From Planctomycetota bacterium (lineage in GTDB: Bacteria; Planctomycetota; Phycisphaerae; Tepidisphaerales; Tepidisphaeraceae): a stretch of DNA of 54,401 bases. A program made the translations under genes and the position numbers. Under the pieces are notes generated by a model, which saw only the letters and a program-made list of their open reading frames with translations, had not been told where the DNA came from and made no database searches. Location: NCBI GenBank assembly GCA_039182125.1, contig JBCDCH010000025.1:1-54401 (forward strand). Direction: 5' to 3'. The stretch's first letter is position 1. Every line of letters begins with the position of its first letter. Below are positions 1,470 to 44,308 of this stretch, one piece after another.

Positions 1470-1543
1470 CGGGACATAGCTCAGCTTGGTAGAGCGTCCG
1501 CTTTGGGAGCGGAAGGTCGCAGGTTCGAATCCTGTTGTCCCGA
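1470..1543 (+). tRNA. tRNA-Pro (anticodon TGG)
   Basis: A complete 74-base cloverleaf. The acceptor arm CGGGACA pairs perfectly with TGTCCCG. The anticodon loop TTTGGGA gives TGG, which reads CCA. The T-loop is TTCGAAT and the discriminator base is A. CCA is not encoded. It ends one base before the stop codon of the convergent KAP gene. Confidence 0.95.
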
Positions 1544-1544
1544 T

Positions 1545-3617
1545 TCAATCGCCTCGCCCCAGGGGAACCGGCGGCATCGTGACGATCTTCGCGGCATGCC
1601 AGCGGGCGATGAACGCTTCGACCTCGTCGGGATTGTCGGCATACGGGTCGTACGGCGGCTCGCTGTCGATCGGCGGTCGTGGGCCGAACGCTTCGTTTTC
1701 GTCGAGCCAATCCCTGATCCGGATCGCGGCCTGCTGCTCGGGTGTCGGACCGCCGGGCCAAACCACACTCGCCCCGCTGAGCAGCTTCCAACACGTCTTT
1801 CGCACATCCACGTCCAGCCCGGCGAGGAACTCCGCCACGAACATCGTCGCGAGCATCCGCTCCGAGCTTTCGTCGATACCCTCGACCATCCGCGGCAACC
1901 CATCCATCGCTTCTTCCAAGCCCTTGAGCATGCCGAAGCCGTTCTGTAGCCGCTTGATCTGACGGGGGTTGGTGAACGCGAACTGCTCGACGCACTGGCG
2001 AAACGCACGGCGTTCATCCGCCGTGAACTGCATCGCTTGGTCGATGTCTTCATCGGTAACCGGCGGCGGACGAAGCTCCGGCGCTGGAGCCGAAGGCGTG
2101 TCATCGTTGTCAATCGAGGTGGCAACCTTGCCACCGTTGATGTCGGTACTCGGTACCGGCGGCGATGGTCGATCGGTAAGCGCTTCGACTGCGCCGACCA
2201 CACTTTCCTCGTCTTCTGCTTCCTGCTTCTCGCGTTCGATCGCATCCTTGAAGAGATGCGTTTCGACGTAGTTCCGCACCACCGCCGGCTCGGGCGGTGG
2301 GAGTTGCACGACGGTGTGGAGCACCTTGGCCAGGTAATCCCGGGCCACCCGCGGCCTGTCCTCGGCGGCGACCGTATCGCGGTAGTGGTGCATCACCGCC
2401 TGCAACGCGATGTCCGAGTCGACGAGCACCACCACCGTCACTCCCGGCACCTCCGCCACGAGCCGCACCGCGTCGAGCGTCTCCACCACCGACTCCGCGT
2501 TACAACGGTCGACGTCGTCGACGAACAGAACCAGTTGCCGCTTTGCGTTGAGCGATGGATCGACCACGTCACGGGCCGTGATCGTGTCGAGCCATCGGCG
2601 AAAGCGGCCACGCTTGTCCGTGTTCTCGCCCGACTGCTCTCCCGGCAACAGGCGTAACTTGGCCATCACTTCGAGGTTGCGGCGAATGGCCGGAAGCTCG
2701 CCGAGATGGTCCGCGTAGTCCGGCAACTGCATGTACCGGTGCAGGTCCGGCGACAGCGGGTGCTTCGCAAGGCTCGTCAGTTGAGCGAATTCCTTCAGTC
2801 CTTTGACCGCTGCGGCGAGCAGGCCCAAGACAGCGATGGTAAGCGGTAGTCCGGTCAACATGCTCAGATTCGGAATCGTGGCGATGACATCGTCGCCAAA
2901 GACGGCCACCATCCCAAAAGCCGTCAGGATCAGCACGACAAGCAAGGCGACCCAACCAAGCCTTAGTAAGAACGGCACAGGGTGTGCGTGCCATGCGAAC
3001 GTCCAGCGCAAACGCAGTTTCGCGAAGAACCCGAGCGGTGCCACCAATCCCTGCACGACTTCCTGCGCCAAGCCCGCAGCGAGGTTGTCGGTTTTCTCGT
3101 AACGCCAGGCGTTGAACTCGGCGAAGCAGAAACGTTTGCCGTGGGTCTTGGTGAGACGATCGCGGAGTTGGAGCATGACGCTGCTCTTGCCAGTGCCCCA
3201 GTCACCGAGCAGGCCGAGGGTGGTGTGGGCGGGAAACTTCTCGCCGGCGAACATCCGCGCGAGCATGAGCACGAACGGCTTCCGGTCGAGATAGTCGTCC
3301 GCCGACGGCTTCTCCGCCGCGATCACCGTCGTGTTGCCGTTGTCCCGCTTGCTCGCCGACCTGGACGCCGCTTCGTCGGTGGATTCGTCCTCAACGAGCG
3401 GCTCGCCGCGGGCCGCAAGCCAGTCGTTGAGTCGATGCAGCATCGCCGGATAACCGAGGCCGGCTTTCGACGTCGAGAGGTACGCATCGAGCAGATCGGT
3501 CCGCTCCACCGACTCGAACGCCTTGCGAATCGTGGGCAGGCGTTCCTTGATAAGTTCCGGCAAACCAGCTTTCCAGAGCGGGCGTTGATAGAACTCATCC
3601 AGCACCTCGGCCGCCAC
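1545..3617 (-). CDS. KAP-family P-loop NTPase
   Basis: Predicted membrane-associated NTPase of 690 residues. Walker A is GDWGTGKS near residues 138-145 and Walker B is LVLFVDDVDRC. Between them lie two strongly hydrophobic segments (near FLLRLGWVALLVVLILTAF and LTIAVLGLLAAAV), the usual KAP arrangement in which membrane helices are inserted in the NTPase domain. The first 80 residues form a separate helical domain that I could not name. The start is GTG at 3617; no good ribosome site precedes it. The upstream frameshifted gene ends 23 bases away, and one 7-bp repeat unit separates the two frames. KAP proteins are often found in defence or accessory loci, but the role here is not shown. Confidence 0.85.
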   Translation of the reverse strand: MAAEVLDEFYQRPLWKAGLPELIKERLPTIRKAFESVERTDLLDAYLSTSKAGLGYPAMLHRLNDWLAARGEPLVEDESTDEAASRSASKRDNGNTTVIAAEKPSADDYLDRKPFVLMLARMFAGEKFPAHTTLGLLGDWGTGKSSVMLQLRDRLTKTHGKRFCFAEFNAWRYEKTDNLAAGLAQEVVQGLVAPLGFFAKLRLRWTFAWHAHPVPFLLRLGWVALLVVLILTAFGMVAVFGDDVIATIPNLSMLTGLPLTIAVLGLLAAAVKGLKEFAQLTSLAKHPLSPDLHRYMQLPDYADHLGELPAIRRNLEVMAKLRLLPGEQSGENTDKRGRFRRWLDTITARDVVDPSLNAKRQLVLFVDDVDRCNAESVVETLDAVRLVAEVPGVTVVVLVDSDIALQAVMHHYRDTVAAEDRPRVARDYLAKVLHTVVQLPPPEPAVVRNYVETHLFKDAIEREKQEAEDEESVVGAVEALTDRPSPPVPSTDINGGKVATSIDNDDTPSAPAPELRPPPVTDEDIDQAMQFTADERRAFRQCVEQFAFTNPRQIKRLQNGFGMLKGLEEAMDGLPRMVEGIDESSERMLATMFVAEFLAGLDVDVRKTCWKLLSGASVVWPGGPTPEQQAAIRIRDWLDENEAFGPRPPIDSEPPYDPYADNPDEVEAFIARWHAAKIVTMPPVPLGRGD

Positions 3618-3621
3618 TTCG

Positions 3622-3657
3622 TCACCAACTTCACCAACTTTAGACTTTAGACTTTAG
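3622..3657. repeat. Short tandem repeats at the junction of the KAP gene and its upstream partner
   Basis: Plus strand: two perfect copies of TCACCAACT (3622-3639), then three perfect copies of ACTTTAG (3637-3657). The 7-bp unit is not a multiple of three, so gain or loss of a unit shifts the frame. With two units instead of three, the upstream frame would read straight into the KAP frame (FLKSKVGEVGDEVAAEVLDE). Confidence 0.9.
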
Positions 3658-4193
3658 AAATTCAAAATCGTTGGCGGCAGCGTAGGTAGGAGCGGCGGTG
3701 GCGGTGGCGGTTACGTCGGGAGGTAGCTCGCCGGGAATGATAACGACCGGGTGTACGTTAAAGATTGAGTGAGCCTCGGCAACAGCCTTATCGGCGATAT
3801 CGGCGGAGTTGACACTAGCGGCTGCTGATGCGACATCAGCGGCCGCATCAGCGACAGATTTGGCGATGGCCGCGGCTAACCCAGCGAGGCTGACACTGGA
3901 AGAGATGGAGCGCGCCGCAGCGCGGGCGGCTCCTTCAGCAGCGCCGGTAGCCTTTACGACGGCGCTCCAAACCATCGAATCAGTCGGTCGACGACAGAAT
4001 ACAGCACCCGCCACGACTGCAGCGTCAATGTTCGACAGAGTTGAGCCTCCATTTTCCCCCAGAAATCGAAGTCGCCGCCGTAACCTACAACCGGAAACAC
4101 GCGCATCGCACAACGGACGGCATATGCGACGATCGCCTGCTTCGGCAGCTCGGCAAGTTCCCCTCGTGTTGGTAGCTTTGCCTGCTCGGCCAC
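3640..4193 (-). pseudogene. Frameshifted gene with LPTRxELAxLP domain, upstream of KAP NTPase
   Basis: Reading from a GTG at 4193 (AAGGGGA about 9 bases upstream) gives AEQAKLPTRGELAELPKQ followed by AIVAYAVRCAMRVFPVV. I recall this domain start from small conserved bacterial proteins; it is normally followed by a long Ala-rich helix. In this frame the sense is lost after FWGKMEAQ and a stop comes at 3954. The expected Ala-rich helix (AAEGAARAAARS, SVADAAADVASAAASV) continues in the -1 frame from about 4040 to a TAA at 3640-3642. The switch falls just after a GGGGGAAAA run (4052-4060). It may be a broken gene, a base-call error, or a slippage site. Function unknown; the pairing with a KAP NTPase suggests one system. 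Confidence 0.65.
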
Positions 4194-4460
4194 GCCCGGT
4201 GTCCCCTTGCTTGCGGTCGTGGGAACGGTATCAGAACACGTCAACGATGTCGTGACATGGATGCGATCGCCGAACATCCGAGCGGCGCGAGAGCGCTCAG
4301 CCGCGTTGCTCCGCAACGCGATTTCGACACCGCGTTGGCGCTGCGAACCAACCGCGTTGCAGAACGACGCAGTCACGCACCACCACGTCGTTGGTACGAC
4401 GTCGCGTTGACGTGGCAGCGTGTCATGGTGTCCGCTTAGGCCATCGCATCATCTCGTGGC
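4194..4460. other. Spacer with degenerate palindromic repeats
   Basis: No gene seen. It holds one good and one decayed copy of the dispersed palindromic repeat described at 4303-4372. The minus-strand reading frame here gives repeat-derived sequence (SNAAERSRAARM), so I do not extend the frameshifted gene into it. Confidence 0.5.
4303..4372. repeat. Dispersed palindromic repeat, copy 1 (partly decayed)
   Basis: A perfect core GCGTTGCTCCGCAACGC at 4303-4319 and a diverged arm at 4350-4372 that matches the AACCGCGTTGCGGAGC-type arm with several changes. Other copies are at 14165-14237, 24957-25028, 33843-33924 and 50743-50806. Confidence 0.7.
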
Positions 4461-4619
4461 GTGCCCCGGCAGATCGAGAGCGTGGTGCTGGGGTGGCTAC
4501 GCGCGGCAGTGCGGTGGATCGCGGGGGTGTTTCGACACCGACCGCCCGCGCTCCGAACTACCGGTCGGTGCTCCACATGTTGTTCTCGATCGAGCGGTAG
4601 GTGTCCTCGAAGCGCATGA
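4461..4619 (+). CDS. Short tryptophan-rich reading frame, related to 5545-5640
   Basis: A GTG-started frame of 52 codons. Its first part reads [20 protein letters not shown], very close to RQAEAVVLGWLLAGWRWLAR encoded at 5551-5610, on the other side of the prepilin-like gene. Several differences between the two copies fall in third codon positions (CTG/CTC, CTA/CTG), as expected if a peptide is conserved. After about residue 33 the similarity stops, and the frame runs antisense into the prepilin-like gene and becomes Ser/Cys/Arg-rich. It may be a decayed duplicate. No clear ribosome site. I do not recognise the family. Confidence 0.35.
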
Positions 4620-5544: not shown

Positions 5545-5673
5545 ATGGCACGGCAGGCCGAGGCGGTGGTGCTCGGGTGGCTGCTGGCGGGTTGGCGGTG
5601 GCTGGCTCGGCTGGTTTGGCGGAAGCCCGGCGCGGCGTTGGTTCGGCCCGCCGCTTCGGCTACAACCGTGGCC
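5545..5673 (+). other. Possible N-terminal extension of the YhaM-like gene or separate short peptide
   Basis: An ATG at 5545 opens a frame that joins the YhaM-like gene without a stop. It begins MARQAEAVVLGWLLAG and is Trp-rich (GWRWLARLVWRK). It resembles the short frame at 4461-4520, in both peptide and codon pattern. YhaM proteins do not carry such a leader, so it is either a repeat that happens to be in frame or a hydrophobic/amphipathic leader peptide. Confidence 0.35.
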
Positions 5674-43875: not shown

Positions 43876-43909
43876 TAGGCGCTAGGGGCTAGGGGTTAGG
43901 CGCTAGGGC
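43876..43909. repeat. Inverted-repeat arm on the cysNC side of the four-helix-bundle gene
   Basis: 34 bases made of three related TAGG-rich units (TAGGCGCTAGGGG, CTAGGGGT, TAGGCGCTAGGGC). The part TTAGGCGCTAGGGC matches the inverse of 44309-44335. The two arms would pair in RNA with the small gene in the loop. Confidence 0.85.
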
Positions 43910-43927: not shown

Positions 43928-44308
43928 TCAGGTTCGTGACTGGATGAGGCGGGTGAGGAGCTTGCCTGTTTCTTGGGCTAGTTGCCATGCGTCTTTCACA
44001 TCGTCTCGATTGAGCCTGTTGCAACGAACTGCGATTTCGATCTGTGTCTCGACCTCTGCGAGCGAGCCCATCGCGTAGCGCAGATGCTTTACGTAATCCT
44101 TGCCCGCTCCGCGTCCGTATCCCTCCGCAATGTTCGACGGCACCGACACGCCCGCCCGCTGCAACTGGGAGATCAATCCGAACTTCTCCGACTCGCTCAT
44201 CTGATCCGTCAACGCATACACCGCTACACAAAGCTCCATCGCTCGCTGCCAAACCACCAACCCCCGATACCCAGAACCATCCGCTTTCAAGTCAAACTCC
44301 AATAACAA
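43928..44308 (-). CDS. Four-helix-bundle protein (23S rRNA intervening-sequence protein family)
   Basis: 126 residues, start uncertain: TTG 44308 or the TTG two codons later, with no ATG before the domain. The family pattern is clear: GLVVWQRAMELCVAVYALTD, EKFGLISQLQRAGVSVPSNI, AEGYGRGAGKDYVKHLRYAMGSLAEVETQI. These proteins form a pentamer-building four-helix bundle and were first found inside intervening sequences of 23S rRNA genes; many also occur between protein genes. Here the gene sits between cysD and cysNC, flanked by inverted repeats. Function unknown. Confidence 0.88.
   Translation of the reverse strand: MLLEFDLKADGSGYRGLVVWQRAMELCVAVYALTDQMSESEKFGLISQLQRAGVSVPSNIAEGYGRGAGKDYVKHLRYAMGSLAEVETQIEIAVRCNRLNRDDVKDAWQLAQETGKLLTRLIQSRT

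Follow-up and report, generated by a model that had tools for sequence, protein, structure and literature searches.

The main finding of this study is that the minus strand between positions 4193 and 1545 very probably holds the remains of a single gene, in which a helical head was fused to a KAP-family NTPase and which carries two frame-breaking changes, one of them the expansion of a heptamer repeat. Positions refer to the window, i.e., the whole 54,401-nt stretch of Planctomycetota DNA that was analyzed. The modules of such a gene are all present and in order—an N-terminal helical domain, an Ala-rich stretch, a linker (D-F-x-x-L followed by PLW), and the KAP NTPase—but two frame changes keep them out of one open frame. 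Homologous, colinear pieces lying in different frames, in a family of which intact members exist, are what characterizes a pseudogene, and the locus is most likely an ordinary decaying gene (Table 1).

The reconstruction relies on a family profile built from 23 relatives whose head domain and KAP share a single ORF; such a profile was required because comparing the 5' pieces with the G097 protein by BLASTP had been uninformative. Along the window, the profile aligns as three colinear segments—profile positions 3–60 in the KAP frame (31.7 bits, E=9e-12), 75–159 in the frame of ORF 3640–4113, and 160–752 again in the KAP frame, i.e., frames 2, 1, and 2. When both frame changes are bridged, the score is 519.6 bits, compared with 484.3 for the KAP frame only and 450.5 for KAP alone. 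The middle piece contributes ~37 bits to the profile score; when it was shuffled with its composition kept, none of 200 permutations reached the real score, and 200 shuffles of just its last 16 residues, adjoining the array, likewise fell short. This scoring of read-throughs superseded a simple frame-aware dynamic programme, which placed the first frame change at about 4002 and failed to bridge the linker. GTG 4193 is the natural start; AAGGGG lies nine bases upstream of it, and from it the gene spans ~880 codons, close to the 878 of its G097 relative (locus L030). The KAP ORF retains, in alignment with relatives, the Walker A motif GDWGTGKSS and the Walker B motif LVLFVDDVDRC, and scores 111.3 bits against PF07693, for which the curated cut-off is 20.

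Table 1. Features of the disrupted KAP locus and its surroundings (window coordinates)
Feature	Position	Strand	Description
tRNA-Pro(TGG)	1470..1543	+	3' end directly adjoins the KAP stop codon (tail to tail)
KAP-family P-loop NTPase ORF	1545..3617	-	690 aa; first usable in-frame start GTG 3617; PF07693 E=6.8e-32
TCACCAACT x2.1	3622-3640		Frame-preserving 9-bp duplication in the same linker (VGEVGD); Tandem Repeats Finder
ACTTTAG x3.1 array	3637-3658		Second frame change, +1 relative to two units
Middle piece of gene	3640..4041	-	Ala-rich, helical; ends ANDFEFLKSKV + TAA; 4041 boundary approximate
GGCGGT x3	3694-3711		Frame-preserving 6-bp array in the Ala-rich piece; Tandem Repeats Finder
5' piece of gene	3954..4193	-	GTG 4193; conserved head motif LPKQAIVAYAVRCAMRVFPVV..FDFW; KAP frame; ends at TAA 3954-3956; 79 aa
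First frame change	3957..4062	-	Net -1; read-through scores flat here, dropping upstream

The initial annotation had correctly described the KAP ORF and, upstream of it, ORF 3640–4113, with the array between the end of the upstream frame and the KAP GTG. It took the upstream ORF for a partner of KAP, i.e., a second gene, while the profile and the 23 relatives identify it as the middle part of one ~880-codon gene starting at GTG 4193. What that description did not contain is the true N-terminus, found in another ORF upstream of KAP (3954–4376) that contains LPTRGELAELPKQAIVAYAVRCAMRVFPVVGYGGDFDFW, shares the frame of KAP, and thereby reveals a second frame change, nor the TAA within the repeat unit. 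The G5A4 run near 4060 raised the idea of programmed −1 frameshifting at the first break, but this was rejected, as there is no canonical slippery heptamer in phase and the second break would also be left uncrossed.

Two further observations concern the surroundings of the gene. A tRNA 3' end lying tail to tail with a gene's stop codon is a layout often seen at integration sites; a search for a duplicated tRNA-Pro 3' end that might serve as an attachment site gave nothing convincing. In addition, window positions 4455–4560 and 5545–5650 read as similar protein starts (the second with MARQAEAVVLGWL), the former having no obvious gene behind it.

Comparison with relatives supports an originally fused gene. 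Scanning genome contigs with the KAP part of the window alone returned nothing, whereas an alignment of four relatives retrieved 80 loci, and in 28 of these, which include L030 from Phycisphaerae and L064 from Phycisphaeraceae, head and KAP are in a single ORF (weakly so in one, L048). A comparison of homologous loci had been proposed as the check on fusion, and its outcome thus favors fusion. With a two-unit array, PLW would lie 27 residues from the D of DFEFL, exactly as in L030, the nearest Phycisphaerae relative, and two units are therefore the probable earlier state. The proposal that a fused ancestral gene was broken by repeat expansion consequently stands as far as the 28 fused loci and the linker length go; it is incomplete in that there is a further frame change at 4062–3957, so that loss of a single unit would still leave the protein disrupted. 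There are counterpoints to the fused-gene reading: KAP proteins with a short extension and no head domain occur at L045, L050, and L055, and G037 possibly encodes a stand-alone head-domain protein.

The family is sporadic and frequently damaged. Among 396 further genomes of the class, 3 have a comparable KAP, and five relatives are themselves disrupted, by an in-frame TAG (L014 and L017), by a frameshift (L049), or by dispersal over several frames (L061 and L065). This sporadic occurrence, together with the broken relatives, points to an accessory gene that is often gained and broken. In the Nitrosomonas marina Nm22 relative (L017:4100-4300), one TAG replaces the Trp of FNAW, and L049 is frame-shifted at nearly the same spot. 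Some KAP genes carry another N-terminal part or a short one; the Planctomycetota relatives L025, L032, and L046 (G477), 1160–1210 aa in length, have different N-terminal parts, which suggests that N-terminal domains are swapped in the KAP family.

The heptamer array itself is beyond dispute. Tandem Repeats Finder reports ACTTTAG at 3637–3658 with a period of 7, 3.1 copies, and 100% match, and the three perfect copies listed in the initial annotation (3637–3657) were located at 3637, 3644, and 3651. The ACTTTAG doublet ACTTTAGACTTTAG occurs in the whole 4.13 Mb genome at this locus only. In 1.254 Mb sampled from the genome, there are just two perfect arrays of at least three copies with a period of 5 or 7–13, ACTTTAG x3.1 and GCGGAAA x3.9. 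When imperfect arrays with periods not divisible by 3 are counted in the same sample, period 7 yields six and each other period none or one, which argues that the array is more than chance. The other five sampled heptamer arrays are all intergenic, with gene positions judged from ORFs, in contrast to the ACTTTAG array, which lies inside a former coding sequence. On the coding strand its unit is CTAAAGT, which contains TAA, and each of the six reading frames across the array contains a stop codon. Both frame-preserving repeats in Table 1 lie less than 75 bp from it. Within intact relatives, tandem arrays in the gene have periods of 6, 9, 12, 15, or 18 only, as expected where the reading frame must be kept. 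A heptamer in this position fits a region no longer constrained in frame, but could also be the breaking event itself.

Other heptamer arrays in this genome deserve mention in their own right. The window contains a second one, TAGGGGC x4.7 (80% match) at 43876–43908, 20 bp downstream of a 23S_rRNA_IVP (S23) gene (43928–44308) and just upstream of a cysN/cysC-type gene. Four more degenerate arrays (L112:18747, L125:7656, L134:11986, and L155:8242) all lie between genes, the one in L125 directly before a ribosomal protein L25-like gene and the one in L155 preceding an elongation factor P-like gene. The proximity of the array at ~43875 to the S23 gene raised the idea that ACTTTAG might be the scar of an S23/IVP-type element; this was dropped, the only other S23 gene (C10) having no clear heptamer array.

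Together, these findings lead us to propose the following history. The ancestral gene would have comprised ~880 codons, encoding an all-helical N-terminal domain—a conserved head, Ala-rich helices, and the D-F-x-x-L/PLW linker—joined to a KAP-family P-loop NTPase. One break would be a net −1 change somewhere in 4062–3957, and the other the growth of the 7-bp unit from two to three copies in the variable linker, a gain for which replication slippage is the probable cause. The gene's own start would now yield a 79-residue stub, the full-length protein would be lost, and the KAP part could be made only via internal initiation, e.g., at GTG 3617.

Could the array act as a switch? The initial annotation had offered, as one of two alternatives, contingency-type phase variation, in which slippage between two and three units would toggle a fused and a split protein. 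Its observation that removal of one copy brings the upstream frame in phase with KAP is accurate, since with two units ANDFEFLKSKV continues into GEVGDEVAAEV with no intervening stop, and the array is exceptional for this genome. We nevertheless regard such switching as highly improbable. At a contingency locus the unit count varies within the population and toggles open and closed frames, by means of a unit that is stop-free in the frame being read, in a gene whose remainder is intact. A family-level DNA search yielded no homologous locus in which units could be counted. Here one unit gives the wrong frame, two read through, and three, four, five, or six all stop at a TAA inside the array, which leaves at most one "on" unit number, and the remainder of the gene is not intact, the upstream frame change leaving even the two-unit state broken. 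A classical contingency tract is excluded because the unit carries its own stop and solely two units are open. Moreover, three copies are the bare detection limit for heptamers, compared with 13–38 copies in known tracts (PMC2651432), and none of the relatives has a tract in the gene with a period other than a multiple of three. A literature search found no paper on phase-variable KAP genes. It is barely conceivable that the break at 4062–3957 is an assembly error and that the population contains cells with two units and cells with three, in which case slippage in a heptamer tract of minimal length would uncouple a sensor-like helical domain from a defence-type KAP ATPase. Equally hard to credit is that the upstream ORF and KAP are separate, genuine genes with the repeat as a spacer: both ORFs are open as they stand, but the upstream one starts out of frame with the conserved head that belongs to it, 28 relatives are fused, and the junction residues fit the family linker.

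The other two alternatives concern the reality and the consequences of the breaks. Either break could be an assembly error, in a draft of 131 contigs and with the first break close to short homopolymers, leaving a real gene that is intact. That sequencing or assembly accounts for one or both breaks is nonetheless unlikely, considering that sequencing reads easily span a perfect 22-bp array, that two separate errors would be needed in one 2.65-kb gene, and that other family members are also broken, including one in the named isolate Nitrosomonas marina Nm22. A gene that is truncated yet working, having lost its head and producing by re-initiation from GTG 3617 a KAP protein that functions without it, is a possibility that we take seriously even though we doubt it. 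The KAP ORF is 690 codons long with its motifs intact, GGTGA lies 4 nt before GTG 3617, relatives consisting of KAP with a short extension exist, and both breaks are upstream of the KAP ORF. On the other hand, the stop of the 5' stub is ~337 nt upstream, too distant for simple coupling, and no promoter-like site was found in the region, although this is a weak test. The absence of any further stop or shift in the 690 KAP codons is also a counterpoint to straightforward decay; the two breaks are confined to the initial 22% of the gene (chance about 0.05 if random), which hints that the KAP part may still be under constraint. On balance, we favor a fused gene in decay.

A decayed gene at an individual locus is of modest interest. 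Of wider significance is that an apparent molecular switch can be excluded by considering frames and relatives, beyond the repeat itself, and that an unnamed all-helical, Ala-rich domain fused to KAP NTPases is widespread in Planctomycetota, Gammaproteobacteria, Nitrosomonas, and Balneolaceae and is broken in several of its copies, a pattern that fits accessory, defence-like genes that come and go. No Pfam family matched this N-terminal domain, apart from an Imm5-like match in one of 23 members that was judged too weak. The AlphaFold2 model of the L064 head domain (3233–4033) consists entirely of helices (mean pLDDT 78), and it found no match among solved structures and mere noise among viral models.

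Measured against known systems, the gene shares with KAP-family P-loop NTPases (Pfam PF07693, ~111 bits) a P-loop NTPase with Walker A and FVDDxDRC motifs and hydrophobic segments between them; it differs by the added N-terminal helical domain and in that the copy here is frame-broken. The best-named relatives of the KAP part are QatA from the Qat anti-phage system, PifA, and PADLOC PDC-S20. However, the KAP part scores 91.7 bits against QatA (NF041923), for which the equivalog cut-off is 600, and among the four neighboring proteins tested there is no qatB, qatC, or qatD and no PADLOC defence family. A role in defence is thus suggested by resemblance. The array for its part shares a 7-bp tandem unit with the phase-variable heptanucleotide tracts upstream of hmw1A and hmw2A in Haemophilus influenzae, but those are promoter tracts of 13–38 copies (PMC2651432), whereas ACTTTAG is a three-copy coding tract with a stop-bearing unit. 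A closer parallel in form is offered by the heptameric simple repeats that are over-represented in many bacteria, such as Xanthomonas, Nostoc, and Beggiatoaceae, which are mostly intergenic and for which polymerase slippage has been proposed (PMC4692102, PMC4679880). They too have a 7-bp unit, few copies, and a small genome-wide set; the ACTTTAG array stands apart from them, and from the five intergenic arrays sampled here, by its position in a former coding sequence.
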